64,000 nucleotides of DNA, taken from positions 4,244,501-4,308,500 of the forward strand of contig NZ_CP060713.1 in the NCBI RefSeq assembly GCF_014395785.1, read 5' to 3'. The notes under the pieces were generated by a model. The model searched no databases and was not told the DNA's origin. It saw nothing but the letters and a program-made list of their open reading frames with translations. Numbering within the stretch: the stretch's first letter is position 1; the number at the start of each line of letters is the position of its first letter. A program made the position numbers and the translations under genes. This DNA is from Nocardioides mesophilus. Its GTDB lineage: Bacteria > Actinomycetota > Actinomycetes > Propionibacteriales > Nocardioidaceae. Positions 28,498 through 57,105 of the stretch are shown here, in pieces.

Positions 28498-28503
28498 AGC
28501 CTA
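28498..28503 (-). promoter_or_regulatory. -10 box for leaderless mshC transcript
   Basis: TAGGCT on the minus strand, exactly 6 nt before the mshC ATG. Confidence 0.6.
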
Positions 28504-35306: not shown

Positions 35307-35361
35307 TACGGCCGCACTCACGGCTGCATCTCGGTCGTGCAGTCGCGGAGACACATACCCG

Positions 35362-40394: not shown

Positions 40395-41927
40395 TCAGCT
40401 CCGGTCGCGGCCGCGCTTGGGAAGCTTCGGCAAGGTCGAGGCACCGCCGTGCAGCATCGTGACCAGCTGCGCGACCCGGCTGTCGGTCTTGGCGTCACGG
40501 CTGAACGAGGTGAGCAGCATCGGCGGCTTGAACCGCTGCCGGGCGATCGCCTTGGCGTAGGTGAACTCCCGCAGGCCGTCGGCGCCGTGGATCCGGCCGA
40601 AGCCGGAGTCGCCGACCCCGCCGAACGGCAGGGACGGGATCGCGGCGAACGAGATCACGGAGTTGACCGAGGTCATGCCCGAGCGGATCCGCCGGGCGAG
40701 CTCCATGCCGCGCTTCTCCGAGAAGACGGTCGCCCCGAGGCCGTAGCGGGTGGCGTTGGTCAGCTCCACCGCCTCGTCCATCGACCGCACCTTCTTGACC
40801 GTCAGCGTCGGCCCGAAGGTCTCCTCGGTCACCGCCGTGGACTCCTCCGGTACGTCGACCAGCACGGTCGGCTGCACGAACCGCTCGCCTACAGCGTCCG
40901 CACCGCCGACCACCGCCCGACCGCCGCGGGCCAGAGCGTCGTCGATGTGCGCCCGGATGATCCCGATCTGCGAGGGCATCGTGATCGGCCCGAGCTTCGC
41001 CTCCAGGTCGGTGTCGGCGCGAAGGTCGCGGGTCTTGTCGACGACGGAGGAGAGGAACCGGTCGTACACCTTCTCGTGCACGTAGACCCGCTCCACGCCG
41101 ATGCAGGTCTGCCCGGCGTTGGACATCCCGCCCCACACCGCCGCGTCCGCCGCGGCCTCGACGTCGGCGTCCTCGTCGACGAGCAGCGCATCCTTGCCGC
41201 CGGCCTCGATGACCACCGGGGTCAGCGTCTCCGCGCAGGTGGCCATCACCTTCTTGCCGGTGCCGGTCGAGCCGGTGAACGCGACCTTGTCCACGCCGGA
41301 GCGGCACAGCGCCGAGCCGGTGTCACCGAACCCGGTGACCACCTGCAGCACCGGATGCGCCGGGCACACCTCGGCGAAGGAGTCGGCCAGCCAGGTACCG
41401 ACGCCGGGGGCGAACTCGCTCGGCTTGAACACCACCGCGTTTCCGGCCGCCAGCGCATAGATCACCGATCCCATCGGCGTGAACACCGGGTAGTTCCAGG
41501 GACCGATCACGCCGACCACCCCGAGCGGGTGGTACTCCAGCGTGGCGGACTGGTTGGCCATCAGCATCCCGGGGCTGACCCGGTGCGGGCCGAGCACCTT
41601 GCGCGCATGCTTCGTCGCCCACGCCAGGTGGTCGATGGCCAGCACGATCTCCAGCATGGCGTCGGAGTGCGGCTTGCCCATCTCCCGGTGCACGACGTCG
41701 GCGAGCTGGGCCATCCGCCGGGTCAGCACCGCGCGCCACTGCGTGAGGCGCTCGGAACGCTCGGCGTGCGGCAGGGCCGACCACCACGCTGCGGCTCCTC
41801 GCGCGCGGGCCACGGCGGCGTGCACGTCGGCCTCGGAGTGCACGGCGTACACCCCGACGACGTCCCCGTTGGCGGGGTTGCGGACCTCGAAAGTCTGCTG
41901 CTGGACGTGTTCGTCGGTGAGGGTCAT
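40395..41927 (-). CDS. Aldehyde dehydrogenase (succinate-semialdehyde type)
   Basis: NAD(P)+-dependent oxidation of an aldehyde to the acid. The 510-residue protein has the cofactor fold TGSTGTGKKVMATCAE, catalytic Glu in VVIEAGGKDALLVDEDAD, catalytic Cys in SNAGQTCIGVERVYV and EETFGPTLTVKKV near the C-terminus. The last ~40 residues are a basic extension (PKLPKRGRDRS). Its ATG overlaps the stop of the GMC oxidoreductase by 4 nt (ATGA), which argues that it oxidises the aldehyde made by that enzyme. It is the last gene of the liv-led operon. Confidence 0.93.
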   Translation of the reverse strand: MTLTDEHVQQQTFEVRNPANGDVVGVYAVHSEADVHAAVARARGAAAWWSALPHAERSERLTQWRAVLTRRMAQLADVVHREMGKPHSDAMLEIVLAIDHLAWATKHARKVLGPHRVSPGMLMANQSATLEYHPLGVVGVIGPWNYPVFTPMGSVIYALAAGNAVVFKPSEFAPGVGTWLADSFAEVCPAHPVLQVVTGFGDTGSALCRSGVDKVAFTGSTGTGKKVMATCAETLTPVVIEAGGKDALLVDEDADVEAAADAAVWGGMSNAGQTCIGVERVYVHEKVYDRFLSSVVDKTRDLRADTDLEAKLGPITMPSQIGIIRAHIDDALARGGRAVVGGADAVGERFVQPTVLVDVPEESTAVTEETFGPTLTVKKVRSMDEAVELTNATRYGLGATVFSEKRGMELARRIRSGMTSVNSVISFAAIPSLPFGGVGDSGFGRIHGADGLREFTYAKAIARQRFKPPMLLTSFSRDAKTDSRVAQLVTMLHGGASTLPKLPKRGRDRS

Positions 41928-43501
41928 CGGGAGCTCCTGATCAGGTCGGCCGCCTTCTCGGCGACCATGATGGTCGGTGCGTTGGTGTTGCCGCGGGGCA
42001 CCACCGGCATGACGGAGGCATCCACCACGCGGAGGGCCTCCACCCCGCGGACCTTCAGCTCGGGGTCCACGACCGCCTGCTCCCCCGAGCCCATCGCGCA
42101 GGTGCCGACCGGGTGGTACAGCGTCTGGGTGTTGCGGCGCAGGTGCTCGGTCAGGTCCTCGTCGGTCGGCGACGGCCCGGGCATCCACGCCGACTTGATG
42201 TACGCCGCCAGCGGCCCCTGCGCCACGACGTCGAGGATCCGCTTGCAGCCCTCGCGCATCGCGTCCAGGTCGGCGGGGTCGTCGTAGTAGCCCGCGTCGA
42301 TCTCCGGGTGCCAGGTCGGGTCCGCCGAGCGCAGCCGCAGGCTGCCGCGGCTCTGCACGGACACCAGCGTGGGGCCGGCGGTGAAGCAGCGCGCCACCGG
42401 CTCGTGCAGCCCGTTGTCGTAGAACGCGCCCGGCGCCGCATGCACCTGCAGGTCAGGAGCCGGCAGGTCGTCACGGGTGGCGAAGAACGCCCCGCCCTCA
42501 CCGATGTTGGAGGCCAGCGGACCGGTGCCGCGCAGCTTCCACCGCAGCAGGTTGGGCAGGGACGGGGCGTCCGCGATGTCCGTCGTGCCCTGGGTGTGCC
42601 ACAGCATCGGCGCGGCCGGGTGGTCGTGCAGGTTCTGGCCCACGCCGGCGAGGTCCGCGACGACGTCGATGCCGTGCTCGCGCAGGTGCGTGGCCGGGCC
42701 GATGCCGGAGAGCATCAGCAGCTGCGGGCTGTTCACCGCTCCCCCGCAGACCAGCACCTCGGCCTCGGCCCGGACGTGCTCGGTGCGGCCCGCGCGCCGG
42801 TAGGTGACGCCGACGGCACGGCCGTTCTCGACGTCGATGCGGCTGGTGAGCGCCTGGGTGCGGACGGTGAGGTTCGACCGGTCCAGCGCCGGCCGGAGGT
42901 AGGCGTCGGCCACCGACCAGCGACGCCCGCGCTTGCAGGTGACCTGGTACAGCCCCGCGCCCTCCTGCTCCGCGCCGTTGAAGTCGTCGTTGCGCTTGTG
43001 ACCCGCGACGACCGCCGACTCGACCCACGCCTCGGTGAGCTCGTGGGTGAACGTCCGGTCCTCGACGTGCAGCGGTCCGCCCTGGCCGTGGTAGGGCGCC
43101 CCGAGCCGCTGGTTGTCCTCGGCCTTGATGAAGTACGGCAGCACGTCGTCGTAGCCCCAGCCGACCGCGCCGTGGCCGTCACGCCAGCCGTCGTAGTCGA
43201 CGCGGTTGCCACGGATGTAGATCATCGCGTTCATCGACGAGCAGCCGCCCAGCGCCTTCATCCGCGGCCAGTAGGCGCGCCGGTTGTGCAGCTGCTTCTG
43301 CTCGCTGGTGGTGTAGTTCCAGTCCCAGCGCGTCTTGAACAGCGACGAGAACGCCGCCGGGATGCGGATCTCGTCGGCGTCGTCCTCACCTCCGGCCTCC
43401 AGGAGCAGAACCCGGGTGCCGGGGTCCTCGCTCAGCCGCGCCGCCAGCACCGCTCCCGCGCTGCCCGCCCCCACCACGATGTAGTCGAACGACTCCGTCA
43501 C
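41924..43501 (-). CDS. GMC-family FAD alcohol dehydrogenase/oxidase
   Basis: A glucose-methanol-choline oxidoreductase of 525 residues that oxidises a primary alcohol. The FAD site is IVVGAGSAGAVLAARLSEDP, the second GMC signature is PRMKALGGCSSMNAMIYIRG, and the catalytic His and Asn are in LYHPVGTCAMGSG and RGNTNAPTIMVAE. Choline dehydrogenase, PEG dehydrogenase and aliphatic alcohol dehydrogenases share these. The GTG at 43501 has GAGGAGG five nt upstream. Choline specificity is not indicated: no BetB-type partner or choline transporter is present. Confidence 0.92.
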   Translation of the reverse strand: MTESFDYIVVGAGSAGAVLAARLSEDPGTRVLLLEAGGEDDADEIRIPAAFSSLFKTRWDWNYTTSEQKQLHNRRAYWPRMKALGGCSSMNAMIYIRGNRVDYDGWRDGHGAVGWGYDDVLPYFIKAEDNQRLGAPYHGQGGPLHVEDRTFTHELTEAWVESAVVAGHKRNDDFNGAEQEGAGLYQVTCKRGRRWSVADAYLRPALDRSNLTVRTQALTSRIDVENGRAVGVTYRRAGRTEHVRAEAEVLVCGGAVNSPQLLMLSGIGPATHLREHGIDVVADLAGVGQNLHDHPAAPMLWHTQGTTDIADAPSLPNLLRWKLRGTGPLASNIGEGGAFFATRDDLPAPDLQVHAAPGAFYDNGLHEPVARCFTAGPTLVSVQSRGSLRLRSADPTWHPEIDAGYYDDPADLDAMREGCKRILDVVAQGPLAAYIKSAWMPGPSPTDEDLTEHLRRNTQTLYHPVGTCAMGSGEQAVVDPELKVRGVEALRVVDASVMPVVPRGNTNAPTIMVAEKAADLIRSSR

Positions 43502-43586
43502 AGCTGCCTCCTCAGGCTCTTCCTCGCAACGTAGCGCGGCGCGCCCCATGGGCGGGCAAGGATACGTCCAGCAGCGGCGGCCGCCC

Positions 43587-44768
43587 CTAGCCGAGATGTC
43601 CGCGCACCGAGGCGTGTCCCTTGAGCAGGTTGCGGGCAATGGTCCGGCGCTGGATCTCGTCGGTGCCCTCGTAGATCCGCAGCAGCCGCAGCTCGCGGTA
43701 CCACCGCTCCACCGGCAGCTCCCGGGTGTAGCCCATGCCGCCGTGCATCTGCAGGACCCGGTCGACGACCTCGTTGGCCTTCTGACCGCCGTAGAGCTTC
43801 GCCATGGACTGTGACTGACGTGAGTCGAGGCCGGCATCGACCTGCCACGCTGCGCAGAGCACCAACCAGCGCAGCGCCTCGATCTCTACAGCGGAGTCCG
43901 CGACCATCCACTGGATAGCCTGTCGGTCCGCGATCGGCTCGCCGAACGTGACCCGGGTGCGCGCGTGCTCCATGCCCATCTCGACGAGCCGCTCACAGGC
44001 ACCGAGCGCACGCGCCGGCAGCATGTAGCGGCCCTTCCCGATCCAGCGCATCGCCAGCTGGAAGCCCCGGCCCTCCTCGCCCAGGATCGCGGTGTGTGGC
44101 ACGCGCACGTCCTCGAAGACGAGCGCGGCCGGTCCCCACTCCCCCATCGTCTCGATGTGCTCCGACCTCCAGCCGCTGTCCCGGTCGACGAGGAAGCACG
44201 TCACGGACTCGTCAGTGCGTCCCTGGCGATGCTTCTGGGCGTCCGTGACCGCGAAGACCATGCAGAAGTCGGCCTCCTGGCCGCCGGTGATGAACGTCTT
44301 CTCGCCATTGATCACCCACTCGTCGCCGTCGCGCTCGGCGCGGGCGCTGATGGCGCGGGCGTCCGAGCCGGCACCGGGCTCGGTGATCGCGAAGCAGCTC
44401 CGGCGCTCCCCGGCGATGGTGGGCAGCAGGTGGCGCTGCTTCTGCTCGTCGTTGCCGAGGTAAAGGATGTTGTCCGCGTCGCCACCGAACTTGAACGGCA
44501 CGAACGACCGACCGAGCTCGGTCTCGACGAGGGCGTTCATCACGGCGCCGAGCCCCATCCCGCCGTACTCCTCCGGCGTGTGCACACCGAAGAAGCCCGA
44601 CTGTTGCGCCTTGGCCTGCAGCCCCCGGAGCTCTTCCCTGCTCAGGCCCGGCTCGTGCCGGCGCTCCCGGGCCAGCACGTCCGGCTCGAGCGGCATCACC
44701 TCCTTGCGCACGAAGGTGCGCACCCAGTCCCGGATCTCCCGCTCCTCCTCGCTCAGGCTCAGGTCCAT
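43587..44768 (-). CDS. Acyl-CoA dehydrogenase
   Basis: FAD enzyme making 2-enoyl-CoA. The ATG at 44768 gives 393 residues with a helical N-terminal domain, CFAITEPGAGSDARAISARA in the FAD/substrate region, and the catalytic Glu in RIYEGTDEIQRRTIARNLLK. QMHGGMGYTRELPVERWYRE precedes it. It begins 4 nt after the acyl-CoA ligase stop, so the product of the ligase is the probable substrate. Chain length cannot be told. Confidence 0.93.
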   Translation of the reverse strand: MDLSLSEEEREIRDWVRTFVRKEVMPLEPDVLARERRHEPGLSREELRGLQAKAQQSGFFGVHTPEEYGGMGLGAVMNALVETELGRSFVPFKFGGDADNILYLGNDEQKQRHLLPTIAGERRSCFAITEPGAGSDARAISARAERDGDEWVINGEKTFITGGQEADFCMVFAVTDAQKHRQGRTDESVTCFLVDRDSGWRSEHIETMGEWGPAALVFEDVRVPHTAILGEEGRGFQLAMRWIGKGRYMLPARALGACERLVEMGMEHARTRVTFGEPIADRQAIQWMVADSAVEIEALRWLVLCAAWQVDAGLDSRQSQSMAKLYGGQKANEVVDRVLQMHGGMGYTRELPVERWYRELRLLRIYEGTDEIQRRTIARNLLKGHASVRGHLG

Positions 44769-44772
44769 CGGC

Positions 44773-46314
44773 TCACACCTCCTCGGGCGTGGGCCCGGAG
44801 GGGGCCGCGGACGCTGGTACGGCGGTGCCGAACTGCGCCCGCAGCTCGCGCTTGAGGACCTTGTGGCTCGGGCCCATCGGCAGCGCGTCCACGATCTCGA
44901 GGTGCCGGGGGTACTTGTGCCGGCCGAGCTGCTCGCGCGACCATGCGACGAGCTCGTCGCTGTCGAGCGATGCGCCGTCGTGGACGATGACCACGGCACA
45001 GACCTCCTCGCCCTTCTCGTCGTCGGGGATGCCGATCACCGCCACCTGGGCGACGGCGGGATGGCGCATGAGCACCTCCTCGACCTCGCGCGGGTAGACG
45101 TTGAAGCCACCGCGGATGATCAGGTCCTTCTTCCGGTCCACGATGGTGATGAAGCCCTCGGAGTCCTTGGTGCCGATGTCACCGGTCCGGAACCAGCCGT
45201 CCACGATCGCCTGGTCGGTCGCTTCGGGGTTGTCGAGATAGCCGGCGAAGACGTTGTGCCCGCGGATCACGATCTCGCCGAGCTCACCGGTGCCGAGCAG
45301 CACGATCCGGTCGTCGAGCGTCTCGTCGGCGATCTCCACCTCGACGCCCCAGATCGGATGTCCGACCGTGCCGGCACGGGTCCCGAACCAGGGCTGGTTC
45401 ACGGTGGCGGTCGGCGAGGTCTCGGAGAGCCCGTAGCCCTCGTACACCGTGGTGTCGAATGCCTTTTCGAACTGCTCCAGCACGGCGACCGGCAGCGACG
45501 CCCCGCCGGAGACACAGTCCCGCAGGCGCGGCAGCACGTCGGCGGACCGGGCGGCCTCCAGCAGCTGGACGTACATGGTCGGAACGCCGAAGAACAACGT
45601 CGCCTGCTCCCGGTACATCACCTCGATCGCGGCAGCGGCGTCGAAGCGCGGCTGCAGCAGCAGGGTGGCTCCCACCCGGAAGGTCGAGTTCATCGACACG
45701 GTCTGGCCGAAGGTGTGGAACAACGGCAGGCAGCCCATGACGACGTCCTCACGACGGATGGGGTTCGCGTCGAAGGCGTTGACCGTCGAGTTCATGACCA
45801 GGTTGAGGTGGGTGAGCACCGCGCCCTTGGGGCGGCCCGTGGTGCCGCTGGTGTAGAAGATGACCGCCGGGTCCTCCGCCTCCCTGGTCGCGTAGGTGGG
45901 CACCGGCTCGCCGTGACCGAAACCCTCCACCGGCCAGGCCTCGATCCCGGCCGAGGCTGCGGCCTGGACCGCCACCGCGGCGTAGCTCTCCTCGTAGAGC
46001 AGCGCCTGCGCCCCGGAGTGGCCCAGGATGTAAGCCGCCTCGTCCCCGTTGAGCAGGGTCGGCACCGGCACCACCGTTCCCCCGGCCGCCAGGATGCCGT
46101 AGTAGCCGCGGATGAAGTCGACCACGTTCGGCGCGAGCAGCCCTACCCGGGTGCCGGGGGCGATGCCGCGGGCGAGGAGCGCGGCGGCGTAGCGGCGGGC
46201 GTCACGCCACAGGTCCGCATACGTCACCCGCAGGTCACCCTCGACGACGGCGACCTTCTCAGGGGTACGGCGGGCGGGCTCGGCCAGCACGGCGGCCAGC
46301 GACAGCGAGGTCAT
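44773..46314 (-). CDS. Acyl-CoA ligase (fatty-acid--CoA synthetase type)
   Basis: An ANL-family enzyme of 513 residues that activates a carboxylic acid with ATP and CoA. AMP-binding motif YTSGTTGRPKGAVLTHLNLV, the GYGLSETSPTATVN motif, GWFRTGDIGTKDSEGF, and the catalytic Lys in GPSHKVLKRELRAQFG are clear. Upstream in the same operon are Liv-type transport genes; downstream are acyl-CoA dehydrogenase, GMC oxidoreductase and aldehyde dehydrogenase. The neighbours suggest that it activates the acid formed by the last two. Confidence 0.93.
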   Translation of the reverse strand: MTSLSLAAVLAEPARRTPEKVAVVEGDLRVTYADLWRDARRYAAALLARGIAPGTRVGLLAPNVVDFIRGYYGILAAGGTVVPVPTLLNGDEAAYILGHSGAQALLYEESYAAVAVQAAASAGIEAWPVEGFGHGEPVPTYATREAEDPAVIFYTSGTTGRPKGAVLTHLNLVMNSTVNAFDANPIRREDVVMGCLPLFHTFGQTVSMNSTFRVGATLLLQPRFDAAAAIEVMYREQATLFFGVPTMYVQLLEAARSADVLPRLRDCVSGGASLPVAVLEQFEKAFDTTVYEGYGLSETSPTATVNQPWFGTRAGTVGHPIWGVEVEIADETLDDRIVLLGTGELGEIVIRGHNVFAGYLDNPEATDQAIVDGWFRTGDIGTKDSEGFITIVDRKKDLIIRGGFNVYPREVEEVLMRHPAVAQVAVIGIPDDEKGEEVCAVVIVHDGASLDSDELVAWSREQLGRHKYPRHLEIVDALPMGPSHKVLKRELRAQFGTAVPASAAPSGPTPEEV

Positions 46315-46349
46315 GGGATCCTCCAGGAAGGGTGTGGTGTCGCGGACGA

Positions 46350-46378
46350 GCCGTCCGACGCGGAAGCGACCGGACGGC
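46350..46378 (-). terminator. Internal hairpin between livK and acyl-CoA ligase
   Basis: GCCGTCCG and CGGACGGC form an 8-pair stem, with CGC/GCG closing a GGAA loop inside. It has no U-tract. In a nine-gene operon it may lower expression of the enzyme genes relative to the transport genes, or protect an mRNA 3' end. Confidence 0.4.
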
Positions 46379-46406
46379 CCGTCAGCCTGTCAGCAGGATC
46401 GACCGG

Positions 46407-47747
46407 TCAGCCGACCGGCTCGATCTCGGGGAGTCCGCTCTCCGCCGGGGCGTCATCACTCTGCCCGGAGGTGTCCTCCTCGATGGGGGCATCCCCGATG
46501 TCGGTGACGAGGACCGGGGTCAGCTCCTTGCCGACCCCGCCCTTCAGCTCGACGATCCGCATGCCGGAGATCCCCAGGTGGCTGTCCTCGCTGAACCGGA
46601 ACGGAGCCAGCTCGGGGCCGGGCCAGCTGGTGTCCCACTGCTCGACCGCATCGACGATGCCCTCCCGGGTCGGGTCCGGTCCGGCCGCCATCAGCGCCTG
46701 CACGAAGGCGTAGGCCTTCGACATGCCGTAGACCCGGTAGTTCGTGAGGTCGCCCTGGTCGCCGTACTCGTCCCAGACCTTCTGCCACAGCTGGATCCAC
46801 GGGTCGTCCTCGGAGTCCACGCCCGGGATGTACTCGGTGGTGAGCACGCCGTCGAGCGGGGCGGCTCCGTCGACCGCGCCCTCGGAGAACTTCGAGAGCA
46901 GCGAGCCGACCAGGTTCGGGTCGGAGCCGATGTTGGCGTAGAACCACTTCGGCTTGTAGTTGAGCTTCATCGCCACCAGCTGGCTGAGCGCGGTGTACGA
47001 CGGGGTGTTGAAGCTGAGCACGAGGTCGGCGCCCTTGGCCTGCAGGCCGGCGATCTGCGGCGCCACGTCGGTGTTGCCCGAGGTGTAGCGCTCCACCCCG
47101 ACGATCTGCTTGTCGAGGAACCGGCGCACCCCCTTCTCGCTGTCCCGGCCGAGGTCGTCGTCCTGCAGGAACAGACCCACCTTCGCGTCGGGCATGTTCT
47201 CGGCGACGTACTGGCCGATGATCTTGCCCTCGCTCTCGTAGTCGGGCTGCCAGCCGAACGTGAACGGCTTCTCCTCCGGCTGGTCACCCCACTGGATCGA
47301 GCCCGACGAGACGAACAGGTCCGGGACCTGCTCGGAGTTCAGGAAGTCCACGACCGCCGCGTGGGTCGGCGTGCCGAGACCACCGACCATCGCGAAGATC
47401 TCGTCCTTGAGCACGAGCTCGTTGGTGACCTGGCTGGTGTTCGTCGGGTTGTAGCCGTCGTCGCGGACCAGGAACTCGATCTTGCGACCGTCCACGCCGC
47501 CTTGCGCGTTGACGTAGTCGAAGTAGGCCTTCATGCCCGTGGGAATCTCGCTGTAACCCGGGGCGGCCACACCGGTGAGCGGGAAGTGCGCTCCGATCGT
47601 CACCGTGTCCTCGGTGATGCCGACGTCGGAGGAGCCGGCCTCCCCCTTGCTCTGCTCACGCGTCTCACCCGCGCCGCAGGCGGCGACCAGCGCTCCCGCC
47701 GTGATGACGCTGGTGGCCAGCGTCATGGTCCTGGTCCATCTCCTCAT
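46407..47747 (-). CDS. Branched-chain-type ABC transporter substrate-binding lipoprotein
   Basis: A periplasmic-binding (type I, LivK-like) protein. The ATG at 47747 follows GGAGG; the signal peptide is MRRWTRTMTLATSVITAG with a lipobox ending GALVAAC. The mature part has VTIGAHFPLTGVAAPGYSEI and KAYFDYVNAQGGVDGRKIEF, which are family hallmarks. Such proteins bind amino acids but also aromatic acids, amides and other carboxylates, so the substrate is open. Linked enzymes suggest an alcohol or acid. It ends with an acidic, Ser/Glu-rich tail. Confidence 0.92.
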   Translation of the reverse strand: MRRWTRTMTLATSVITAGALVAACGAGETREQSKGEAGSSDVGITEDTVTIGAHFPLTGVAAPGYSEIPTGMKAYFDYVNAQGGVDGRKIEFLVRDDGYNPTNTSQVTNELVLKDEIFAMVGGLGTPTHAAVVDFLNSEQVPDLFVSSGSIQWGDQPEEKPFTFGWQPDYESEGKIIGQYVAENMPDAKVGLFLQDDDLGRDSEKGVRRFLDKQIVGVERYTSGNTDVAPQIAGLQAKGADLVLSFNTPSYTALSQLVAMKLNYKPKWFYANIGSDPNLVGSLLSKFSEGAVDGAAPLDGVLTTEYIPGVDSEDDPWIQLWQKVWDEYGDQGDLTNYRVYGMSKAYAFVQALMAAGPDPTREGIVDAVEQWDTSWPGPELAPFRFSEDSHLGISGMRIVELKGGVGKELTPVLVTDIGDAPIEEDTSGQSDDAPAESGLPEIEPVG

Positions 47748-47817
47748 GTGTCCTGCCTCCTGTTGGTTCCACACCTGATCCCGGACCGTCCTGGACGGTC
47801 TCGGACTTCCCGAGCTG

Positions 47818-48870
47818 TCACGTGGTCTCTCGGCGGCTCCTACGCCAGCCCCGCAGGCTGCCGACGATCCCCGCCGGGGCGAGCAGGATCACCAGCACCA
47901 TCACCAGGCCGTAGACGAGTGGAGCCAGCTCGGCCGACTGGACGTCGCTGAGCCCCAGGTCGTGGCCGACGCCGGTGACGACCTGCGGGAGGAAGGTCAG
48001 CAGGGCCGCGCCGATCAACGCGCCGAGCAGGCTGCCCAGACCACCGAGCACCACCGCGGTCAGCAGGGTCAGCGACAGCGTCAGCGTGAAGCCGCTCGGC
48101 GCCGTGATCCGCACCGCCATCGCCATCACAGCCCCGGCCAGACCGGCACAACCGGCACTGACCAGGAAGGCGAGCACCCGGGCTCGGCCCAGGTTGATGC
48201 CCGCGAGCTCGGCCGCGACCTCGTCGTCGCGGACCGCCCGCCAGACCCGTCCGACCCGGCTGCGTGACAGGTTGGCCAGCAGCACGAAGGTGACGATCAG
48301 TGCGAGCCAGCCGATGTAGGCGACGTACTTGCTGGCGGTGACGTCGTGGGCGGTCAGGAAGAAGACGGCGTCGGCGAACCAGCCCGGGACGTCGGGCACC
48401 CGCACGTTGAGGCCCTGCTCGCCGCCCAGCGAGTCGCCGAAGAAGATCGCCATCCCAGGGACGGCGACCGCCAGCGCCAGGGTCGCGCCCGCGAGATAGG
48501 GGCCGTGCAACCGGGCGGCGGCGACCCCGACGAGAGCCCCGACGAGCAGCGCCACGACCGTGGCGACCAGCAGCACCCCCACGACGGGCAGTACCGGCTC
48601 GGCCTCCCGGTAGAGCAGCGCGGTCGAGTAGGCCCCGAACGCCATGAACGCGCCATGACCGAGCGAGATCTGGCCGTTGAGACCGGTCAGCACGGTCAGT
48701 CCGCCGGCGGCGATGCCGAGATAGGCCATCGCCGCGAACTGGGCGTTGCGGAAGGTGCTGGTGCTCTCCAGCACCAGGATCACCACCACGAGGCCGATCA
48801 GGGCGACCGCCAGGTGCCGCAGGAGCGTGGACCGGGAGACCCTGTGCAGGGGGGCGGCGAGCATCGACAT
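47818..48870 (-). CDS. livM: Branched-chain-type ABC transporter permease (LivM)
   Basis: A 350-residue permease with about ten hydrophobic segments. NGQISLGHGAFMAFGAYSTA is the LivM/LivH signature, and VWRAVRDDEVAAELAGINLG is the ATPase-coupling loop. ATG at 48870 stands 1 nt after the LivH stop, showing tight coupling. It carries a basic C-terminal tail (RGWRRSRRETT). Confidence 0.92.
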   Translation of the reverse strand: MSMLAAPLHRVSRSTLLRHLAVALIGLVVVILVLESTSTFRNAQFAAMAYLGIAAGGLTVLTGLNGQISLGHGAFMAFGAYSTALLYREAEPVLPVVGVLLVATVVALLVGALVGVAAARLHGPYLAGATLALAVAVPGMAIFFGDSLGGEQGLNVRVPDVPGWFADAVFFLTAHDVTASKYVAYIGWLALIVTFVLLANLSRSRVGRVWRAVRDDEVAAELAGINLGRARVLAFLVSAGCAGLAGAVMAMAVRITAPSGFTLTLSLTLLTAVVLGGLGSLLGALIGAALLTFLPQVVTGVGHDLGLSDVQSAELAPLVYGLVMVLVILLAPAGIVGSLRGWRRSRRETT

Positions 48871-48871
48871 G

Positions 48872-49750
48872 TCAGACCCTCCGCGCAGCGGCGTGGGAGA
48901 ACAGGCCGCCCGGTTTGAGCAGCAGCACCAGCATCAGGATCACCAACGCTGCCAGGGCCACCACCTCGGATCCGACATAGCCGCTGACGAAGCTCAGCGA
49001 GACCCCCAGCAGCAACCCCCCGACCACGGCTCCGAGCGGGCTGTCCAGGCCGCCCAGCACCGCCGCCACGAACCCGTAGACGACCACCGAGTCCATGTAG
49101 GACGGGTGCACCAGGCTGCCTCCCGCGATGAGCAGCCCCGACAGCGATCCGACGAGCGCCGCCAGGGCCCAGCCCAGCGTGAGCATCCGGCCGACGCGGA
49201 CGCCGAGCAGCCGGGCGACCTCGGCGTTGTAGGCCGAGGCCCGCATTCGCAGCCCGAGGTCGGTGAACCGGAACAGCGCGACCAGCAGCCCCATCACGAC
49301 GAGCACTGCCACGATCGTGAACATCCCGAATCCGGTCAGCGCGACGTTCAGCTCACCGACCTCGAAGCCCCGCAGACCGAAGGGCGCCGGGAAGGAGCGG
49401 TAACGGGAACCGAAGAGCACCGCCGCCAGCGCATGGATGACGATGAACAGCCCCAGGGTGAGGATCACCGCGTTGATCTCGGACTTGCCCTCGACCGGGC
49501 GCACGAAGACCCGCTCGACGAGCGCGCCGAGCACCAGACCGGAGACCAGCGCGACCACGAAGGCGAGCCAGTAGGAGAGGCCCGCGTCGATGAGCAGCAG
49601 CGCGACGTAGGTGGTGATCATCGCCATGGGTGCCTGCGCGAAGTTGACGATCCGCGTCGAACGCCAGATGAGCACGAGCGCGAGGGCGAACGCGGCGTAG
49701 ACGAAGCCGAGGGTCAGCCCGGTCAACGCGGTGGTGAGCAACTGCTGCAC
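48872..49750 (-). CDS. livH: Branched-chain-type ABC transporter permease (LivH)
   Basis: A 292-residue permease with about eight helices. FALALVLIWRSTRIVNFAQA at residues 21-40 is the LivH signature and LRMRASAYNAEVARLLGVRV the coupling loop. GTG start at 49750 with GGAG five nt upstream. It forms the heterodimeric channel with LivM. Confidence 0.92.
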   Translation of the reverse strand: MQQLLTTALTGLTLGFVYAAFALALVLIWRSTRIVNFAQAPMAMITTYVALLLIDAGLSYWLAFVVALVSGLVLGALVERVFVRPVEGKSEINAVILTLGLFIVIHALAAVLFGSRYRSFPAPFGLRGFEVGELNVALTGFGMFTIVAVLVVMGLLVALFRFTDLGLRMRASAYNAEVARLLGVRVGRMLTLGWALAALVGSLSGLLIAGGSLVHPSYMDSVVVYGFVAAVLGGLDSPLGAVVGGLLLGVSLSFVSGYVGSEVVALAALVILMLVLLLKPGGLFSHAAARRV

Positions 49751-49777
49751 GAGATCTCCCGAGATCGCGGGTGGAGG

Positions 49778-50518
49778 TCAGAAACCGAGGTAGGCGTGGC
49801 GGAGCTTCTCGTCCGCTGCGAGGACGGCCGCCTCGTCGTGGACCACGAGCCGGCCGAGGTTCAGCACGACGCCGAAGTCGGCGATGGACAGGGCGCTGCG
49901 CGCGTTCTGCTCGACCAGCAGCACGGTGAGTCCGTCGGACTCCACCAACGACCTGAGCAGGTCGAAGATCTGTCCCACCACCCGCGGTGCGAGGCCCAGC
50001 GACGGCTCGTCGAGAAGCAGGATCTTGGGCGTGGCCATCAGTGCCCGGCCGATCACCAGCATCTGCCGTTCCCCGCCCGACAGCACGTGCGCGATCGCGT
50101 TGCGTCGGTCGCTGAGCACCGGGAACAGCGTGAACACCCGGTCCAGCGGCGCGGCCTGCGACCGGGCGGAGCGACCCAGCCCGCCGAGACGGAGGTTCTC
50201 CTCGACGGTGAGCTCCGTGATCACGCCGCGGCCCTCGGGCACGTGGGCCAGCCCGAGACCGGACATGGCCTCGGTCGGGGTGCGCACCAGGTCGGCGCCC
50301 TCCAGCTCGGCGCTCCCGTGCGTGGGCCGGACCAGGCCGGAGAGGGTGCGCAGCAGCGTGGTCTTCCCCGCCCCGTTGGCACCGAGCACCGCGGTGATCT
50401 TGCCTCTCGGGGCCGAGAACGTCAGCCGGTCGAGGGCCGTGACAGCTCCGTAGCTGGTGGTGAGCTCGCGTACGTCGAGCATGGTCGGCAGGGTCGGCAT
50501 GGGCGGCATGGGCGGCAT
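49778..50518 (-). CDS. livF: Branched-chain-type ABC transporter ATPase (LivF)
   Basis: A 246-residue ATPase. Walker A AVLGANGAGKTTLLRTL, signature LSGGERQMLVIGRAL, Walker B ILLLDEPSLGLAPRV and the LivF-type VLLVEQNARSALSIADFGVV are all present. The N-terminus MPPMPPMPTLPTML is encoded by near-perfect 9-bp repeats and offers several start codons (50518, 50509, 50500, 50482). GAGGAG eight nt before 50518 supports the first. It starts 2 nt after the LivG stop. Confidence 0.92.
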   Translation of the reverse strand: MPPMPPMPTLPTMLDVRELTTSYGAVTALDRLTFSAPRGKITAVLGANGAGKTTLLRTLSGLVRPTHGSAELEGADLVRTPTEAMSGLGLAHVPEGRGVITELTVEENLRLGGLGRSARSQAAPLDRVFTLFPVLSDRRNAIAHVLSGGERQMLVIGRALMATPKILLLDEPSLGLAPRVVGQIFDLLRSLVESDGLTVLLVEQNARSALSIADFGVVLNLGRLVVHDEAAVLAADEKLRHAYLGF

Positions 50519-50520
50519 GG

Positions 50521-51354
50521 TCAGCGCTCCTCTCCGATGGCGACGTCCTGGTGCGTGTGCGGGACCTCGTCGCCGAGGTAGGCCGCCAGCACCGCCGGGT
50601 CGTCCCGGATCTCTTCGGGCCGACCGCGCGCGATCACCTTGCCGAAGTCGAGCACGACGATCCGGTCGCAGACGCTCATCACCAGATCCATGTGGTGCTC
50701 GACGAGCATCACCGACATCCGGTCGGTGAGCCCGCGGATCAGCTCGCCCAGCTCGGCCATCTCGTCGTTGGAGAGCCCGGACGCCGGCTCGTCGAGAAGC
50801 AGGAGCTCGGGCTCGCTGACCCTCGCGCGGGCCAGGGCGACCCGCTTGCGGACCGGGTACGGCAGGCTGGACGGCAGGTGCCCGGCGTACGCCTCGATGC
50901 CGAGCTCGGAGAGGACCGTCCGGGCCCGATCCTCCAGAGCCGCCTCGTCCTTGGCGCTGCGCGGCAGCGCGAGCAGGCTCGAGAGGAAGCTCGCGCGGGC
51001 GTGCCGGTCCGCACCGACCATGACGTTGTCGAGGACGCTCATCTGGTCGAAGAGGCCGAGGCCCTGCAGCGTCCTGCCGATGCCCAGGCCGGCGAGCTGG
51101 TGCGGCCGCAGCCGGTCGAGCTCGCGGCCCTGCCACGTCAGGGTGCCGGTGTCCGGCTGCACGAATCCGCAGGCCACGTTGAACAAGGTGGTCTTGCCGG
51201 CGCCGTTGGGCCCGATCACCCCGAGAACCTGGTGCCGGGCCACCTCCAGACCCACGCCGTCGAGCGCGACGATGCCCCCGAAGCCGACCCCGATCCCGGA
51301 CATCGTGAACACCGGCGCGGCGCTCGCCGGGTCCTCGGCAGGGGAAGTGCTCAC
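50521..51354 (-). CDS. livG: Branched-chain-type ABC transporter ATPase (LivG)
   Basis: First gene of the liv-led operon. From the GTG at 51354 it has 277 residues: Walker A GVIGPNGAGKTTLFNVACGF, Walker B LLLLDEPASGLSNDEMAELG, LVEHHMDLVMSVCDRIVVLD and the LivG-type C-terminal PEEIRDDPAVLAAYLGDE. The ABC signature is degenerate: the family LSYG-x-Q/R is YPVRKRVALARARV here. The ATG at 51303 is an alternative start but would drop a short acidic leader only. Divergent from the PucR gene. Confidence 0.9.
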   Translation of the reverse strand: MSTSPAEDPASAAPVFTMSGIGVGFGGIVALDGVGLEVARHQVLGVIGPNGAGKTTLFNVACGFVQPDTGTLTWQGRELDRLRPHQLAGLGIGRTLQGLGLFDQMSVLDNVMVGADRHARASFLSSLLALPRSAKDEAALEDRARTVLSELGIEAYAGHLPSSLPYPVRKRVALARARVSEPELLLLDEPASGLSNDEMAELGELIRGLTDRMSVMLVEHHMDLVMSVCDRIVVLDFGKVIARGRPEEIRDDPAVLAAYLGDEVPHTHQDVAIGEER

Positions 51355-51515: not shown

Positions 51516-52790
51516 ATGGTCCAGCCCCCCGCTCCGCGCGGCCCCGCGCCCGCGCGGCCCCCGGAACCGGCTGCCGACGCCCTCGAGCGCCAGATCCGGC
51601 GCGCCTGGGCATCCCTGGTCGACCGCGCGGACGCCATCGCCGACGACATCTCGCTGACGCTGTTCGAGAAGGACCGCGAGTGGTACGACAAGGCCGGCCA
51701 GGACCTCCGCGCCGACGTCCGCAGCAGCACCCGCGAGCACGTCCGCCGCGGCATCCTCACCATGGCCGGGCGCGCCGAGCCGGGCAAGCGGGCCACCGAC
51801 GTGTGGCGCGAGACCGGTCGGCGGCGGGCCCGGCAGGGCGTGCCGATGGAGCTGGTGCTGAACGCCTACAGCCTCGGCACCCGGGTGCTCTGGGAGGCGC
51901 TGCTCGAGCAGGGCAACCGCCAGGACCTCGGCGTCGACGACCACGTGCTGCTGATGGCCGGCCAGCGGATCTGGAACGCCCTCGACGTCCAGAACACCAT
52001 CCTGGTGGAGTCCTACCGCCGCGAGGCCGCCCGGCTGGAGCGGCGCGACCTGCAGCGCCAGCAGAGCTTCCTCGACGGCTTGGTCGAGGGCAGGGGCGCC
52101 GACCCCGAGTTCGCGCGCGAGGCCGCTGAGAACCTGGGCGTCGGGGTGGACGAACCGGTCGCCTGCGTGGTGGCGCCGTTCGACGAGTCCCTGGACGAGC
52201 CGCTCCGCGCTCCGGAGGACCGGCTCGAGCGAGCCGGTCGGGTCTCGCACTGGCACGTGCGCGGGGGTGCCTACTTCGGGTTGGTGCCGCTCGGCGAGGT
52301 CGGCCACGACGACCTGCTGGAGATGCTCACCCAGATCGCCGCCGGGCGCGTCGGCGTGGCGATGGCGCCGGACGGCATCGCCGGCTTCGCCTCGGCCTAC
52401 CTGCTCGCCACCCGGGTCGCCCAGACGGTGCCCCGCGGCCAGACGCAGGTCGTGGCCGTCACCGACCGGCTCCCCGAGGTGTTGTTGAGCGCCAGCCCCG
52501 AGGTCGCCTCGCTGGTGGTCGAGGAGTCGGTGGGCCCCCTGCTCGCACAGCCGCAGCACCAGGCGGACGTGCTGATCGAGACGCTGCTGGCACTGCTCGA
52601 GCACAACGGGTCGCCGACGCACGCCGCCGAGGTGCTGTACTGCCACCGCAACACCGTGATCTATCGGACCAAGCAGATCGAGCAGCTCACCGGCCGCAGC
52701 CTCCAGGTGCCGCGCGACCGGCTCATGCTCGTGCTCGGCCTCATCGCGACCGGTCGCTCCCAGCAGCGCTCCGCGGCGATCCAGGGGTGA
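51516..52790 (+). CDS. PucR/CdaR-family transcriptional regulator
   Basis: A 424-residue regulator. The N-terminal ~170 residues are helical (sensor-like, RsbR-type appearance), the middle is GGDEF-like CdaR sensor sequence (about 190-320), and the C-terminal HTH_30 domain reads NGSPTHAAEVLYCHRNTVIY followed by RTKQIEQLTGRSL. Members sense a pathway substrate and control nearby catabolic genes. It is divergent from the nine-gene liv operon, its most likely target. It converges with the glutaryl-CoA-dehydrogenase-like gene. Confidence 0.9.
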   Translation: MVQPPAPRGPAPARPPEPAADALERQIRRAWASLVDRADAIADDISLTLFEKDREWYDKAGQDLRADVRSSTREHVRRGILTMAGRAEPGKRATDVWRETGRRRARQGVPMELVLNAYSLGTRVLWEALLEQGNRQDLGVDDHVLLMAGQRIWNALDVQNTILVESYRREAARLERRDLQRQQSFLDGLVEGRGADPEFAREAAENLGVGVDEPVACVVAPFDESLDEPLRAPEDRLERAGRVSHWHVRGGAYFGLVPLGEVGHDDLLEMLTQIAAGRVGVAMAPDGIAGFASAYLLATRVAQTVPRGQTQVVAVTDRLPEVLLSASPEVASLVVEESVGPLLAQPQHQADVLIETLLALLEHNGSPTHAAEVLYCHRNTVIYRTKQIEQLTGRSLQVPRDRLMLVLGLIATGRSQQRSAAIQG

Positions 52791-52814: not shown

Positions 52815-53987
52815 TCACCTGAAGGCGCTCACCCCGGTGAGGGCCTGCCCGATCATCAGCTGGTGCACCTCGGAGGTCCCCTCGTAGGTGAGCACCGACT
52901 CGAGGTTGTTGGCGTGCCGCAGCACCGGGTACTCCAGGGTGATGCCGTTGGCCCCCAGCAGCGTCCGGCACTCGCGGGCGATCGCGATCGCCTCGCGGAC
53001 GTTGTTGAGCTTGCCCAGGCTGACCTGCTCCGGACGCAGCGTCCCGGCGTCCTTGAGCCGCCCCAGCTGGAGCGCCAGCAGCATGCCCTTGCCGAGCTCG
53101 AGGGTCATGTCGGCGAGCTTGGCCTGGGTCAGCTGGTAGCCGGCCAGCGGCTTGTCGAAGATCCGTCGGTCCCCGGTGTAGGCGATGGCGCTCTCCAGGC
53201 AGTCACGGGCGGCGCCGAGGGCACCGAAGACGATGCCGTAGCGGGCCTCGTTGAGGCAGGACAGCGGTCCGGACAGACCCTTCGCCTCCGGCAGCATCGC
53301 GGAGTCGGGCAGCCGGACGTCCTCGAGCACCAGCTCGGCGGTGACCGAGGCGCGCAGTGAGAGCTTCTTCTTGATCTCCGGCGCGGAGAACCCGGGCGTG
53401 CTGGTCGGCACCACGAACCCGCGGACCTTGTCGTCGGTCTGCGCCCACACGATCGCCACGTCGGCCACCGAGCCGTTCGTGATCCACATCTTGGTGCCGT
53501 TCAGCACCCAGTCGCTGCCGTCGCGGCGGGCCCGGGTGCGCATCCCGCCGGGGTCCGAGCCGAAGTCCGGCTCGGTCAGCCCGAAGCACCCGATGGCCTC
53601 CCCGGTCGCCATCCGCGGCAGCCACTCCTGCTTCTGCTCCTCGCTGCCCCACCGCCAGAGGGCGAACATCGCCAGCGACCCCTGCACGGAGACCAGCGAG
53701 CGCAACCCCGAGTCGGCCGCCTCGAGCTCCATGCAGGCCAGGCCGTACGCCGTGGCGCTCGTCCCCGCGCAGCCGTAGCCCTCGAGGTGCATGCCGAGCA
53801 GCCCCATCGACCCGAGCTCGCGGGCCAGCTCGCGCGCCGGGATCGTCGCGGTCTCGTACCAGTCGGCGACGCGCGGCTTGACCTTGTCCTCGACGTACTT
53901 GCGCACCGTGTCGCGGATCGCCCGGTCCTCCTCGCCGATCAGGGCGTCGGTGCCGAAGAGGTCGAGCGGGGTGTGGGTGGTAGCCAC
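52815..53987 (-). CDS. Acyl-CoA dehydrogenase, glutaryl-CoA dehydrogenase-like
   Basis: The GTG at 53987 (AGGAG six nt upstream) gives 390 residues. The C-terminus HANNLESVLTYEGTSEVHQL with LLGANGITLEYPVLR resembles glutaryl-CoA dehydrogenase; the catalytic Glu is in YEGT. CFGLTEPDFGSDPGGMRTRA is the FAD-region motif with the D-F-G variant seen in that subgroup. The arginine that binds the second carboxylate in true glutaryl-CoA dehydrogenase cannot be assigned with confidence here, so the substrate may be another acyl-CoA. Confidence 0.88.
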   Translation of the reverse strand: MATTHTPLDLFGTDALIGEEDRAIRDTVRKYVEDKVKPRVADWYETATIPARELARELGSMGLLGMHLEGYGCAGTSATAYGLACMELEAADSGLRSLVSVQGSLAMFALWRWGSEEQKQEWLPRMATGEAIGCFGLTEPDFGSDPGGMRTRARRDGSDWVLNGTKMWITNGSVADVAIVWAQTDDKVRGFVVPTSTPGFSAPEIKKKLSLRASVTAELVLEDVRLPDSAMLPEAKGLSGPLSCLNEARYGIVFGALGAARDCLESAIAYTGDRRIFDKPLAGYQLTQAKLADMTLELGKGMLLALQLGRLKDAGTLRPEQVSLGKLNNVREAIAIARECRTLLGANGITLEYPVLRHANNLESVLTYEGTSEVHQLMIGQALTGVSAFR

Positions 53988-54067: not shown

Positions 54068-55221
54068 TCAGACGAACGCGTTGACGCCGGTCTCGGCGCG
54101 GCCGACGAGCAGCTTCTGGATCTGGCTCGTGCCTTCGTAGAGCGTCATGACGCGGGCGTCGCGCATGTACTTCTGGACGGGGTACTCGTCGACGTAGCCG
54201 TAGCCGCCGAACACCTGGATCGCCAGGTTGGCGGCCCGCACGGCTGCCTCGGAGGCGAAGTACTTCGCCTTGGAAGCGGCCACGCCGAACGGCTCGCCGC
54301 GGTCGATGAGGTCGGCCGCCCGCCACACCAGCAGCCGTGCCGCGTCGGCGTCGACCGAGATGTCGGCGATCATGTCCTGGACGAGCTGGAACGAAGCGAG
54401 CGGTCGGCCGAACTGCTGACGCTCCCGGCTGTAGGAGACGGCCGCGTCCAGGCACCCCGCGATGATCCCGACGCAGCCGGCCGCGACCGACACCCGCCCC
54501 TTGTCCAGGGAGTGCATCGCGATCTTGAAGCCGTCTCCCTCGGCGCCGAGCCTCGTCGAGGCCGGCACCCGCATCGCGTCGAAGGCGAGCTCGGCGGTCG
54601 CCTGGCCCCGCAGCCCGAGCTTGCCCTTGATCTCGGTGCGGGAGAAGCCGAGGGTCTCGGTGGGGACCAGGAACGCGGAGACCCCTTCGGCCCGGGGCCG
54701 CCGGTGCGCGCGAACAGCAGGCACACGTCGGCCCAGGTGCCGTTGGTGATGAAGATCTTGGAGCCGTCGACGACGTAGTCGTCCCCGTCACGGACGGCCC
54801 GGGTGCGCAGGTTGCCGGCGTCGGAGCCGGTGTCCGGCTCGGTGAGGGCGAAGCAGCCGAGGCTGCGGCCGGTCGCGATGCCCGGCAGCCACTGCTGCTT
54901 CTGCGCCTCGGTCCCGTGCGACAGGATCACCTTGCCGACCAGCCCGTTGGACACCGAGACGATCCCGCGGACCGAGGAGTCGGCGCGGCCGAGCTCCTCC
55001 ATCGCCACGCAGTAGGTGAGGTTGTCGGCACCGATGCCGCCGTACTCCTCGGGGATGGTCAGACCGAAGAAGCCGAGGTCACCCATCTTGGGGATGACCG
55101 CGGTGTCCACCGACTCGACGCGGTCCCACTCGGTGCGGTGCGGCACCACCTCGCGGTCGAGGAACTCGCGGGCCAGCCGCTGGAAGCTGCGCTGGTCGTC
55201 AGTCAGGCTCAGGTCCACCAC
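54068..55221 (-). pseudogene. Acyl-CoA dehydrogenase interrupted by a one-base frameshift
   Basis: The 5' frame (from 55221) encodes MVDLSLTDDQRSFQRLAREF through CFALTEPDTGSDAGNLRTRA to WADVCLLFARTGGPG. Near 54691-54700 it leaves the family sequence. The next frame resumes at once with RAEGVSAFLVPTETLGFSRT and continues to MTLYEGTSQIQKLLVGRAE, with the catalytic Glu, and a stop at 54068. One extra base at the C/G run would restore a normal 384-residue enzyme; total length 1154 nt is one short of a multiple of three. Either a sequencing error or a recent inactivation. Confidence 0.85.
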
Positions 55222-55306: not shown

Positions 55307-55942
55307 ATGGGCCGTCCGCGCACCCCGCTGCTGAACCGCGAGCTGATCCGCGACACGGCGCTGCGGCTCATCGACGCCGACGGGCTCGCAGCCCTGTCGA
55401 TGCGCCGGCTGGCCCAAGAGCTCGGCGTCCAGGCCGCGTCGCTCTACAGCCACTACCCGACCAAGGACGACGTCCTCGACGCCGTGGCCAACCTGCTCAC
55501 CGCGGACGTCGACACCTCGGGATTCGCCGGAGGCGACTGGCGGGCCGGCCTGCTCATCTGGGGACGGGCCTACCACGCCGCGCTGTCCGCGCATCCGAAC
55601 GCGGTGCCGGTGGTCGCCTCGGGCACCGGGCGCCGGGAGAGGTTCCTGGCGATGGCGGACGCGGTCCACGGCGGTCTGGTCGGCGCCGGCTGGCCGCCCC
55701 GCTACGCCACGATGATCGCCGGCTCGGTGAAGTACCTCGTGATCGGGGCGACCTCGACGCCGTTCGGCAGCGGCTTCGCCGACGACGTCCAGGTCTACCT
55801 GGACCGGTACCCCAACCTCACCCAGGCGCACCGACTGGCCGAGCAGGCCGAGCGCATCGACACCGACAGCTTCGAGCTCGGCCTCGAGGCGCTGGTGCGC
55901 GGCCTCGAGGACGTCTACGCGGCCGTGGGCCGGCAGCGGTAG
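55307..55942 (+). CDS. TetR-family transcriptional regulator
   Basis: A 211-residue repressor. The HTH is LIRDTALRLIDADGLAALSM, RRLAQELGVQAASLYSHYPT (about 14-55), and the C-terminal domain is TetR_C-like (LLIWGRAYHAALSAHPNAVP). AAGGAG precedes the ATG. It is divergent from the frameshifted acyl-CoA dehydrogenase and convergent with the next dehydrogenase cluster, so the first is the better target candidate. The ligand is probably an acyl-CoA, by family habit rather than direct evidence. Confidence 0.9.
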   Translation: MGRPRTPLLNRELIRDTALRLIDADGLAALSMRRLAQELGVQAASLYSHYPTKDDVLDAVANLLTADVDTSGFAGGDWRAGLLIWGRAYHAALSAHPNAVPVVASGTGRRERFLAMADAVHGGLVGAGWPPRYATMIAGSVKYLVIGATSTPFGSGFADDVQVYLDRYPNLTQAHRLAEQAERIDTDSFELGLEALVRGLEDVYAAVGRQR

Positions 55943-55956: not shown

Positions 55957-57105
55957 TCAGGGCAGCGGAAGGTCCACCAGCCGGCTGAGGTGCAGCCGGT
56001 GTGCGGCCGGGGTGCCGAGCGCGATCTGGTCGGTCTTGGCGCGTTTGAGGTACAGGTGGGCCGGGTGCTCCCAGGTCATCCCCAGCCCGCCGTGCAGCTG
56101 CACGCACTCCTCGGCAGCCCTCACCGCGACGTCCGCGCAGTACGCCTGCGCGAGGGAGGCGGCCAGCTCCGCGTCCGGATGGTTCGCCGCGGTCGCCGCA
56201 GCGGCGTGTCGCGCCGCCGCCCGGGCGGACTCCACGACGACGTACAGGTCGGCGAGCCGGTGCTTCAGCGCCTGGAACCCGCCCAGCACCCGCCCGAACT
56301 GCCGGCGCTGCTGGAGGTAGGCGACCGTGGTGTCCAAGCACCACTGCGCGATCCCGAGCTGCTCGGAGGCGAGCAGGGCCGCCCCCACGGTCAGCGTCTG
56401 CCGCAGCGCCCGGGCGCCGTCCTCGACGCCGACCACGAGAGTCGAGCCGGCGCCGGCGAGCTCGACGTCGGCCACCTGGCGGGTCATGTCCAGGGAGAGG
56501 ACCGGGTGGACCCGGGCGGCCGCCGTCTCGACCAGGTGCAGCTCCACGCCGGCGGACGTCGCCACCGGAACCAGCAACGCGTCCGCCTCGAGAGCGCCGG
56601 CCACCGAGGTGACGCGTCCCTCCAGTCCCCGCTCCCCCGCGAGCACCGACGGCCGGACCGCGAACGCGGCAGCGGACAGGGGTACGACGAGCGCGGCCGT
56701 CCGCTCCCCCGCCGCCAGCGCCGCAAGAAGCTCGCCGCGGGCACCCGGCCCGGGACCGGGCTGCGAGCCGGGCCCGTCGGGCAGCAGCGCGAGGGTGGCG
56801 AGCACCGAGCTGGTCAGGAACGGGACCGGCGCCACGGCGCGGCCGAGCTCCTCCAGCACGACGGCCGCCTCCCGGGCCGAGGCACCGGCACCGCCGGCGG
56901 CCTCCGGGACCAGCAGTCCGGCCAGTCCGAGCTCCGCGCCGACGAGCGGCCACAGCGACCCGACCAGCGACCGGTCCCCGTCGTAGAGGGCCACCACGTC
57001 TGCCGGGGCGCAGCGGTCGTCGAGCAGGCTCCGGAGGCTCGCGCGCAGCGAGTCCTCGACGTCGGTGTAGAGCAGGTCGAGGTCGTCGGTCGTCGCGTGC
57101 GTCAT
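55957..57105 (-). CDS. Acyl-CoA dehydrogenase-like protein, probable non-canonical subunit
   Basis: A 382-residue FadE-type protein. The N-terminal half is Ala/Gly-rich and lacks the T-E-P-x-x-G-S-D motif of classic enzymes. The middle has YLQQRRQFGRVLGGFQALKH and the C-terminus CVQLHGGLGMTWEHPAHLYL, then KTDQIALGTPAAHRLHLSRL instead of a Y-E-G-T type Glu site. This is the pattern of one partner in mycobacterial alpha2-beta2 steroid-type dehydrogenases. It overlaps the next dehydrogenase by 4 nt, which supports pairing. Confidence 0.87.
   Translation of the reverse strand: MTHATTDDLDLLYTDVEDSLRASLRSLLDDRCAPADVVALYDGDRSLVGSLWPLVGAELGLAGLLVPEAAGGAGASAREAAVVLEELGRAVAPVPFLTSSVLATLALLPDGPGSQPGPGPGARGELLAALAAGERTAALVVPLSAAAFAVRPSVLAGERGLEGRVTSVAGALEADALLVPVATSAGVELHLVETAAARVHPVLSLDMTRQVADVELAGAGSTLVVGVEDGARALRQTLTVGAALLASEQLGIAQWCLDTTVAYLQQRRQFGRVLGGFQALKHRLADLYVVVESARAAARHAAAATAANHPDAELAASLAQAYCADVAVRAAEECVQLHGGLGMTWEHPAHLYLKRAKTDQIALGTPAAHRLHLSRLVDLPLP

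Follow-up and report, generated by a model that had tools for sequence, protein, structure and literature searches.

The 64 000-nucleotide stretch of Nocardioides mesophilus analysed here (the window; contig NZ_CP060713.1, positions 4,244,501 to 4,308,500 of a genome assembled as a single 4.49-Mb contig) carries on its minus strand, from 51354 to 40395, a row of nine genes: livGFHMK for an ABC importer of the Liv type, then an acyl-CoA ligase, an acyl-CoA dehydrogenase (ACAD), a GMC oxidoreductase and an aldehyde dehydrogenase (ALDH). A reading made from the sequence alone had taken the row for one operon for uptake and oxidation of an alcohol. Coordinates and Pfam domains bear out its gene content, order and strand; the locus itself, however, we interpret, with a probability of about 0.55, as three modules: the liv importer with a PucR-type regulator, the ligase (and ACAD) belonging with a catabolic cluster to the right of that regulator, and a GMC–ALDH pair attached here. 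The conserved partner of liv appears to be a 4-hydroxyacyl-CoA module of the ACAD11 type rather than the GMC–ALDH pair, and the imported carboxylate is probably a 4-hydroxy or 4-oxo acid.

Gene linkage across the family

Linkage was counted in 294 genomes of the family, two genes being called linked when they lie within 20 kb of each other. Matches were found to livK in 79 genomes, to GMC in 134, to the ligase in 14 and to the ACAD in 21; the main livK counts use the 70 genomes with an identity of at least 61%, and the nine below 61% were counted apart. The dehydrogenase half of the ACAD11-type module has a match in 266 of the 294 genomes, of which only the best were listed, and all linkage counts for this gene hold among the matches listed. 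On that basis livK and the ACAD11-type gene are linked in 33 of the 41 genomes that have both, four of the 33 lying outside the genus that supplies the rest, and the ligase is linked to the ACAD11-type gene in every genome with both (7/7). The same is true of livK and the ligase (8/8), while livK and the ACAD are linked in 4/9, and PucR, liv, ligase and ACAD are contiguous in three genomes (G000, G029 and G271). Linkage of GMC to livK (1/34) and to the ACAD11-type gene (1/67) is confined to N. mesophilus itself; in Nocardioides jiangsuensis the corresponding locus has no GMC–ALDH pair.

In the relatives whose loci were fetched, the flank upstream of PucR, with its ACADs and kinase, is kept and the flank beyond livK varies; a PucR homologue adjoins liv in 19 of 32 such loci. 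Two loci without liv have the ligase abutting the same ACAD/kinase cluster. Near more distant liv genes, an ACAD homologue (68%) lies within a few kb in two loci and a kinase homologue (47%) in a third. Orthologues of the ACAD elsewhere stand beside other ABC transporters, a desaturase, an epimerase, an amidase and a pterin-binding enzyme, a set that suggests no clear pathway, and searches of plasmids returned mostly distant homologues.

The GMC–ALDH pair

With the GMC protein as query, named genomes yielded 47 loci at or above 55% identity, among them loci of Nocardioides, Aeromicrobium, Amycolatopsis, Mycolicibacterium, Rhodococcus, Nocardia and Pseudonocardia. An ALDH homologue (at least 60% identity) is present in 46 of the 47, within 300 bp in 39, and none of the 47 has a homologue of the liv genes, ligase or ACAD (at least 45%) or of PucR (at least 35%). 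Because the ALDH is so constant and the other genes are missing from every one of these loci, we regard the pair as what appears to be an old, independent unit found in varied surroundings. No fixed partner emerged among nine neighbour proteins scanned in the named loci: seven were a ligase, a phosphodiesterase, a berberine-type oxidase, a gyrase, a monooxygenase, a ZIP protein and a Na/H exchanger, and two gave none. A single nine-gene alcohol operon is thus poorly supported, since its parts are not linked as a set in relatives. Of the one alcohol pathway proposed, a unit for uptake, CoA activation and dehydrogenation stands, carried by the livK–ligase linkage and the three contiguous liv-ligase-ACAD loci; its alcohol half finds no support, given the independence of the GMC–ALDH pair. 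A tidy same-strand gene row can evidently be a lineage-specific mosaic.

The nearest solved structures to the GMC protein are 8b7s, a chloramphenicol-inactivating oxidoreductase, and 9lq0, an oxygen-dependent choline dehydrogenase. It scores below the equivalog cut-offs of BetA (489.7 versus 732.1 bits) and of the mycofactocin-linked MftG (322.7 versus 387.45 bits). The available part of PMC13400229 describes adjacent genes for an ALDH (ChdA) and a GMC enzyme (ChdB) in the chloramphenicol (chd) cluster of the actinobacterium Nocardia testacea CS1, proposed to act on chloramphenicol. The adjacency is as in N. mesophilus, but other genes of the chd type were not seen among the annotated genes of the window. 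These cases show that such pairs take varied alcohols, and they assign no substrate here.

We also considered a choline pathway and rejected it, as the BCCT genes adjoin a GMC paralogue of 40–41% identity in G029 and G045, not this orthologue (58 relatives were searched for the BCCT family, and positions in the two genomes were compared by eye). The paralogues beside these BCCT-type transporters form a second GMC clade, which is the likelier choline dehydrogenase.

A putative two-gene ACAD11

The cluster of ACADs, kinase, short-chain dehydrogenases (SDRs) and thiolase lies beyond PucR, outside the span covered by the sequence-only reading. Its centre is an adjacent pair, an APH-fold kinase and an ACAD11-type dehydrogenase. 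We aligned both to 8v3u using the diagnostic residues named for the two halves of ACAD11 in the available part of PMC12440821. In the dehydrogenase the HCMR motif, the upstream Arg and the catalytic Asp of ACADs are all kept, and in the kinase we find the catalytic Asp, the Asn five residues on and the RQV Arg; the chain index runs one below the numbering of PMC12440821, whose Arg86 is not placeable in our alignments. The best reading is that the pair represents a bacterial two-gene version of ACAD11, hence a putative 4-hydroxyacyl-CoA module. Mammalian ACAD10 and ACAD11 (structures 8v3u and 8v3v), according to the same part of PMC12440821, share these residues in kinase and ACAD and are single fused proteins, whereas the bacterial halves, known from sequence, are encoded by two separate adjacent genes.

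The closest known arrangement is the lva operon of Pseudomonas putida and P. citronellolis (LvaABCDE with transporters LvaFG). In the available part of PMC6692424 the levulinate route comprises the ligase LvaE, the reductase LvaD, the kinase LvaA and the ACAD LvaC, and LvaG is an ActP homologue. Both systems cluster a ligase, a reductase-type dehydrogenase, an APH-fold kinase, an ACAD11/LvaC-type ACAD and a transporter, and one of the three SDRs of the window is a candidate counterpart of LvaD. They differ, as far as that source goes, in the transporter (ActP-like in lva; in N. mesophilus the one adjoining the ligase is a Liv-type ABC system), in regulation (sigma-54 type versus PucR and TetR types) and in the additional ACADs and thiolase present here.

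We postulate the following scheme. The livGFHMK genes and the divergent PucR-type regulator would constitute a Liv-family ABC importer unit, whose direction of transport we infer to be inward. The ligase, joined in a few genomes by the ACAD, would have been appended to liv to activate and oxidise the imported acid, forming one catabolic unit with the right-hand kinase, ACAD11-type enzyme, ACADs, SDRs and thiolase. The carboxylate would be converted to its acyl-CoA; a 4-oxo group, if present, would be reduced to 4-hydroxy by a short-chain dehydrogenase; the kinase would phosphorylate the 4-hydroxyacyl-CoA and the ACAD11-type enzyme would remove the phosphate to give a 2-enoyl-CoA, with β-oxidation and the thiolase completing the breakdown. 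The GMC–ALDH pair would be an independent alcohol-to-acid module that joined the row downstream in this lineage; its substrate may be a different compound.

The LivK ligand

The sequence-only reading had placed the importer in the Liv type, which corresponds to the HAAT family, and the operon upholds this with its pair of ATPases, pair of BPD_transp_2 permeases and type I binding protein. A model of LivK built with 23 diverse sequences reached a pLDDT of 87.9 (an earlier one from 14 close sequences, pLDDT 48, was not used). Its best matches in a fold search were two that tie, valine-bound 3lkb (Z 40.7, rmsd 2.7 over 363 residues, 22% identity) and an entry whose title names a binding protein of a fatty acid ABC transporter, 4n03 (Z 40.5, rmsd 2.6 over 366 residues, 21% identity). 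Aromatic-acid binders followed at Z 34 to 37. The modelled fold would therefore be compatible with amino, fatty and aromatic acids, and the acid substrate is proposed because of the gene linkage. The protein shares 22–24% identity with E. coli LivJ and LivK, in an alignment too weak for judging the amino-acid clamp. HAAT importers that include the fatty-acid-binding 4n03 and the aromatic-acid-binding Rhodopseudomonas palustris proteins have the same five-gene make-up and type I fold; what differs here is the PucR neighbour and the lipid-catabolic context. The window holds another possible acid importer, a short-chain fatty acid transporter family protein (PF02667) at 17793–19250.

Spacing and a hairpin after livK

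The nine genes had been said to be joined by overlaps or short gaps. Spacing is indeed short, with gaps of 2 nt (livG–livF), 27 nt (livF–livH), 1 nt (livH–livM), 70 nt (livM–livK), 4 nt (ligase–ACAD) and 85 nt (ACAD–GMC) and a 4-nt overlap of GMC and ALDH; between livK and the ligase, however, lie 92 nt that hold a strong hairpin. Among 300 random windows of 110 nt, one reached its folding energy of -36.4 kcal/mol, and the stretch has a folding z of -2.9. The same test found nothing comparable in the 70-nt livM–livK, 85-nt ACAD–GMC and 98-nt ALDH–AI2E gaps. Counting N. mesophilus, 21 of 33 loci have a hairpin of -34.4 kcal/mol or lower after livK, in some cases where the operon ends at livK; the remaining loci are partly not comparable, because in some the next gene comes directly after livK. 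The hairpin has no U-tract. Actinobacterial terminators may lack one.

From these features the window looks as if it has kept a liv terminator. Were the hairpin to end the liv operon, co-transcription of all nine genes would be doubtful; it makes a nine-gene transcript less likely, with read-through possible, and gives no argument against ligase, ACAD, GMC and ALDH as one transcript. A promoter scan found no promoter.

Weighing the explanations

Several observations weigh against the scheme proposed above. As many as 29 of the 33 genomes in which livK and the ACAD11-type gene are linked come from one genus, so the count is inflated by shared descent, and in 8 of the 41 genomes with both (again among the matches listed) the two are not linked. 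Among the livK relatives below 61% identity, linkage to a listed ACAD11-type match was found in none of five genomes with both. Two loci from two other families (livK 67%) have PucR and liv, and the sequence fetched around them, about 20 kb, holds neither ligase, kinase nor ACAD; the loci of another genus group carry liv without PucR or the cluster. The tie between 3lkb and 4n03 means that the fold does not decide the LivK ligand. Finally, one right-hand ACAD (b in Table 1) and the third SDR are split between frames here, near short G runs, and are in one frame in relatives, which points to assembly errors or to decay of the cluster in this genome. In the liv loci without PucR (L179, L180, L189, L193 and L194) the importer has different, conserved neighbours on either side.

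That all nine genes import an alcohol and oxidise it by way of aldehyde, acid and acyl-CoA to enoyl-CoA seems to us unlikely. The genes are contiguous on one strand and tightly spaced at the GMC–ALDH and ligase–ACAD junctions, no strong hairpin separates ACAD from GMC, and the enzyme classes could act in that order; against this stand the hairpin after livK and the behaviour of the GMC–ALDH pair, which joins liv in this genome only and in many actinobacterial genera occurs without orthologues of liv, ligase or ACAD. The polyethylene glycol operon of sphingomonads does hold a GMC dehydrogenase, an ALDH and an acyl-CoA ligase together, but in N. mesophilus those enzymes belong to modules found apart in all relatives examined. 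Slightly less likely still, in our estimate, the importer would be a common transporter of branched-chain amino acids or peptides, placed next to lipid genes through inherited gene order and nothing more. Such a transporter would agree with the best NCBIfam matches of the importer (LivF, LivG, LivM and urea/LivH-type permeases, all below cut-off), with valine-bound 3lkb as top structural match, with the dominance of one genus among linked genomes and with the loci that have PucR and liv alone. It accounts poorly for a ligase found directly next to livK in several genomes from different genera (some 30 nt away in G014 and 10 nt in G199), for an ACAD/kinase flank that stays while the downstream flank varies, and for the distance of LivK from its E. 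coli namesakes.

The GMC–ALDH pair might instead serve choline-to-betaine or chloramphenicol-type oxidation with no relation to its surroundings, as its nearest NCBIfam models (choline dehydrogenases), its nearest structures and the ChdA–ChdB pair in the available part of PMC13400229 could suggest. We consider this highly improbable, given the scores below the BetA cut-offs, the BCCT-type transporters beside the paralogue, the want of other chd-type genes among those annotated in the window and the distance of 8b7s. A bolder extension would use every part of the locus: GMC and ALDH would turn an external 1,4-diol, lactol or 4-hydroxy-alcohol into a 4-hydroxy acid, the ligase would form the CoA ester, the ACAD11-type pair would remove the 4-hydroxyl via phosphate on the way to central metabolism, the Liv importer would supply the substrate and PucR would exert control. 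This complete route is speculative and quite improbable; if true, it would be the first of its sort with an ABC importer of the Liv family, as far as our literature searches reached.

On the three-module reading, candidate substrates are to be sought among carboxylic acids oxygenated at carbon 4 and no longer among alcohols, and a family of importers for such acids is named. If it is true, Nocardioides liv operons of this kind need not be annotated as amino-acid transporters, and a two-gene bacterial ACAD11 with its own importer would offer a simple model for a reaction recently assigned in mammals. Literature searches, covering titles and the beginnings of abstracts with most subscription papers outside reach, did not find a Liv-type importer with an ACAD11- or lva-like route in actinobacteria; they returned work on mammalian ACAD10/11 and on Pseudomonas levulinate, and nothing usable for the nine-gene combination.

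Features of the locus and its surroundings

Domains of all nine proteins exceed Pfam cut-offs. Among the NCBIfam models shown none of the nine reaches the cut-off, so their naming stops at the family level (Table 1). The ACAD of the row contains the canonical catalytic-Glu stretch YEGTDEI. The PucR-type regulator, which the sequence-only reading did not mention, starts 161 nt from livG on the opposite strand.

Table 1. Features of the nine-gene row and the cluster beyond PucR, in window positions
Feature	Position	Strand	Basis
livG, ABC ATPase	50521..51354	-	PF00005, PF12399; start and Shine-Dalgarno identified
livF, ABC ATPase	49778..50518	-	PF00005; best NCBIfam model LivF, below cut-off
livH, permease	48872..49750	-	PF02653
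livM, permease	47818..48870	-	PF02653
livK, substrate-binding lipoprotein	46407..47747	-	PF13458; lipobox LVAAC by eye; type I binding-protein fold
Strong hairpin, likely terminator or attenuator	46315..46406	-	Folding energy, livK–ligase gap
AMP-forming acyl-CoA ligase (ACS)	44773..46314	-	PF00501, PF13193; nearest solved fatty-acyl/feruloyl-CoA synthetases, FadD13
ACAD	43587..44768	-	PF00441, PF02770, PF02771; nearest solved short-/medium-chain ACADs
GMC oxidoreductase	41924..43501	-	PF00732, PF05199; nearest solved 8b7s
ALDH	40395..41927	-	PF00171; nearest NCBIfam PRK09407, below cut-off
Divergent PucR/CdaR-type regulator	51516..52790	+	PF13556, PF17853
ACAD a	52815..53981, start approximate	-	–
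ACAD b	54071..55218	-	Split between two frames near 54690
TetR-family regulator	55307..55942	+	PF00440, PF02909
ACAD c	55957..57105	-	Best NCBIfam model IpdE2, below cut-off
ACAD d	57102..58283, start approximate	-	–
ACAD11-type dehydrogenase, LvaC-like half	58292..59530	-	8v3u, E 1.4e-140
APH-fold kinase, LvaA-like half of ACAD11	59530..60561	-	8v3u, E 1.8e-39
SDR 1	60602..61342, start approximate	-	PF13561
SDR 2	61354..62163	-	PF00106
SDR 3	62153..62907	-	Split between two frames near 62750
Thiolase, may run past window end	62904..63998	-	PF00108, PF02803; above PRK07851 (acetyl-CoA C-acetyltransferase) cut-off

To the left of the row lies tRNA-Leu(gag) at 35361–35447; the AI-2E family protein and the aldo-keto reductase between it and the ALDH have no homologue above 40% in the fetched loci. 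Farther left, a cobalamin-dependent methionine synthase stands beside a cysteinyl-tRNA synthetase family protein (22455–28500), the latter perhaps the mycothiol ligase, and two Pup-ligase family proteins with a proteasomal ATPase form a pupylation–proteasome locus at 4191–11565.

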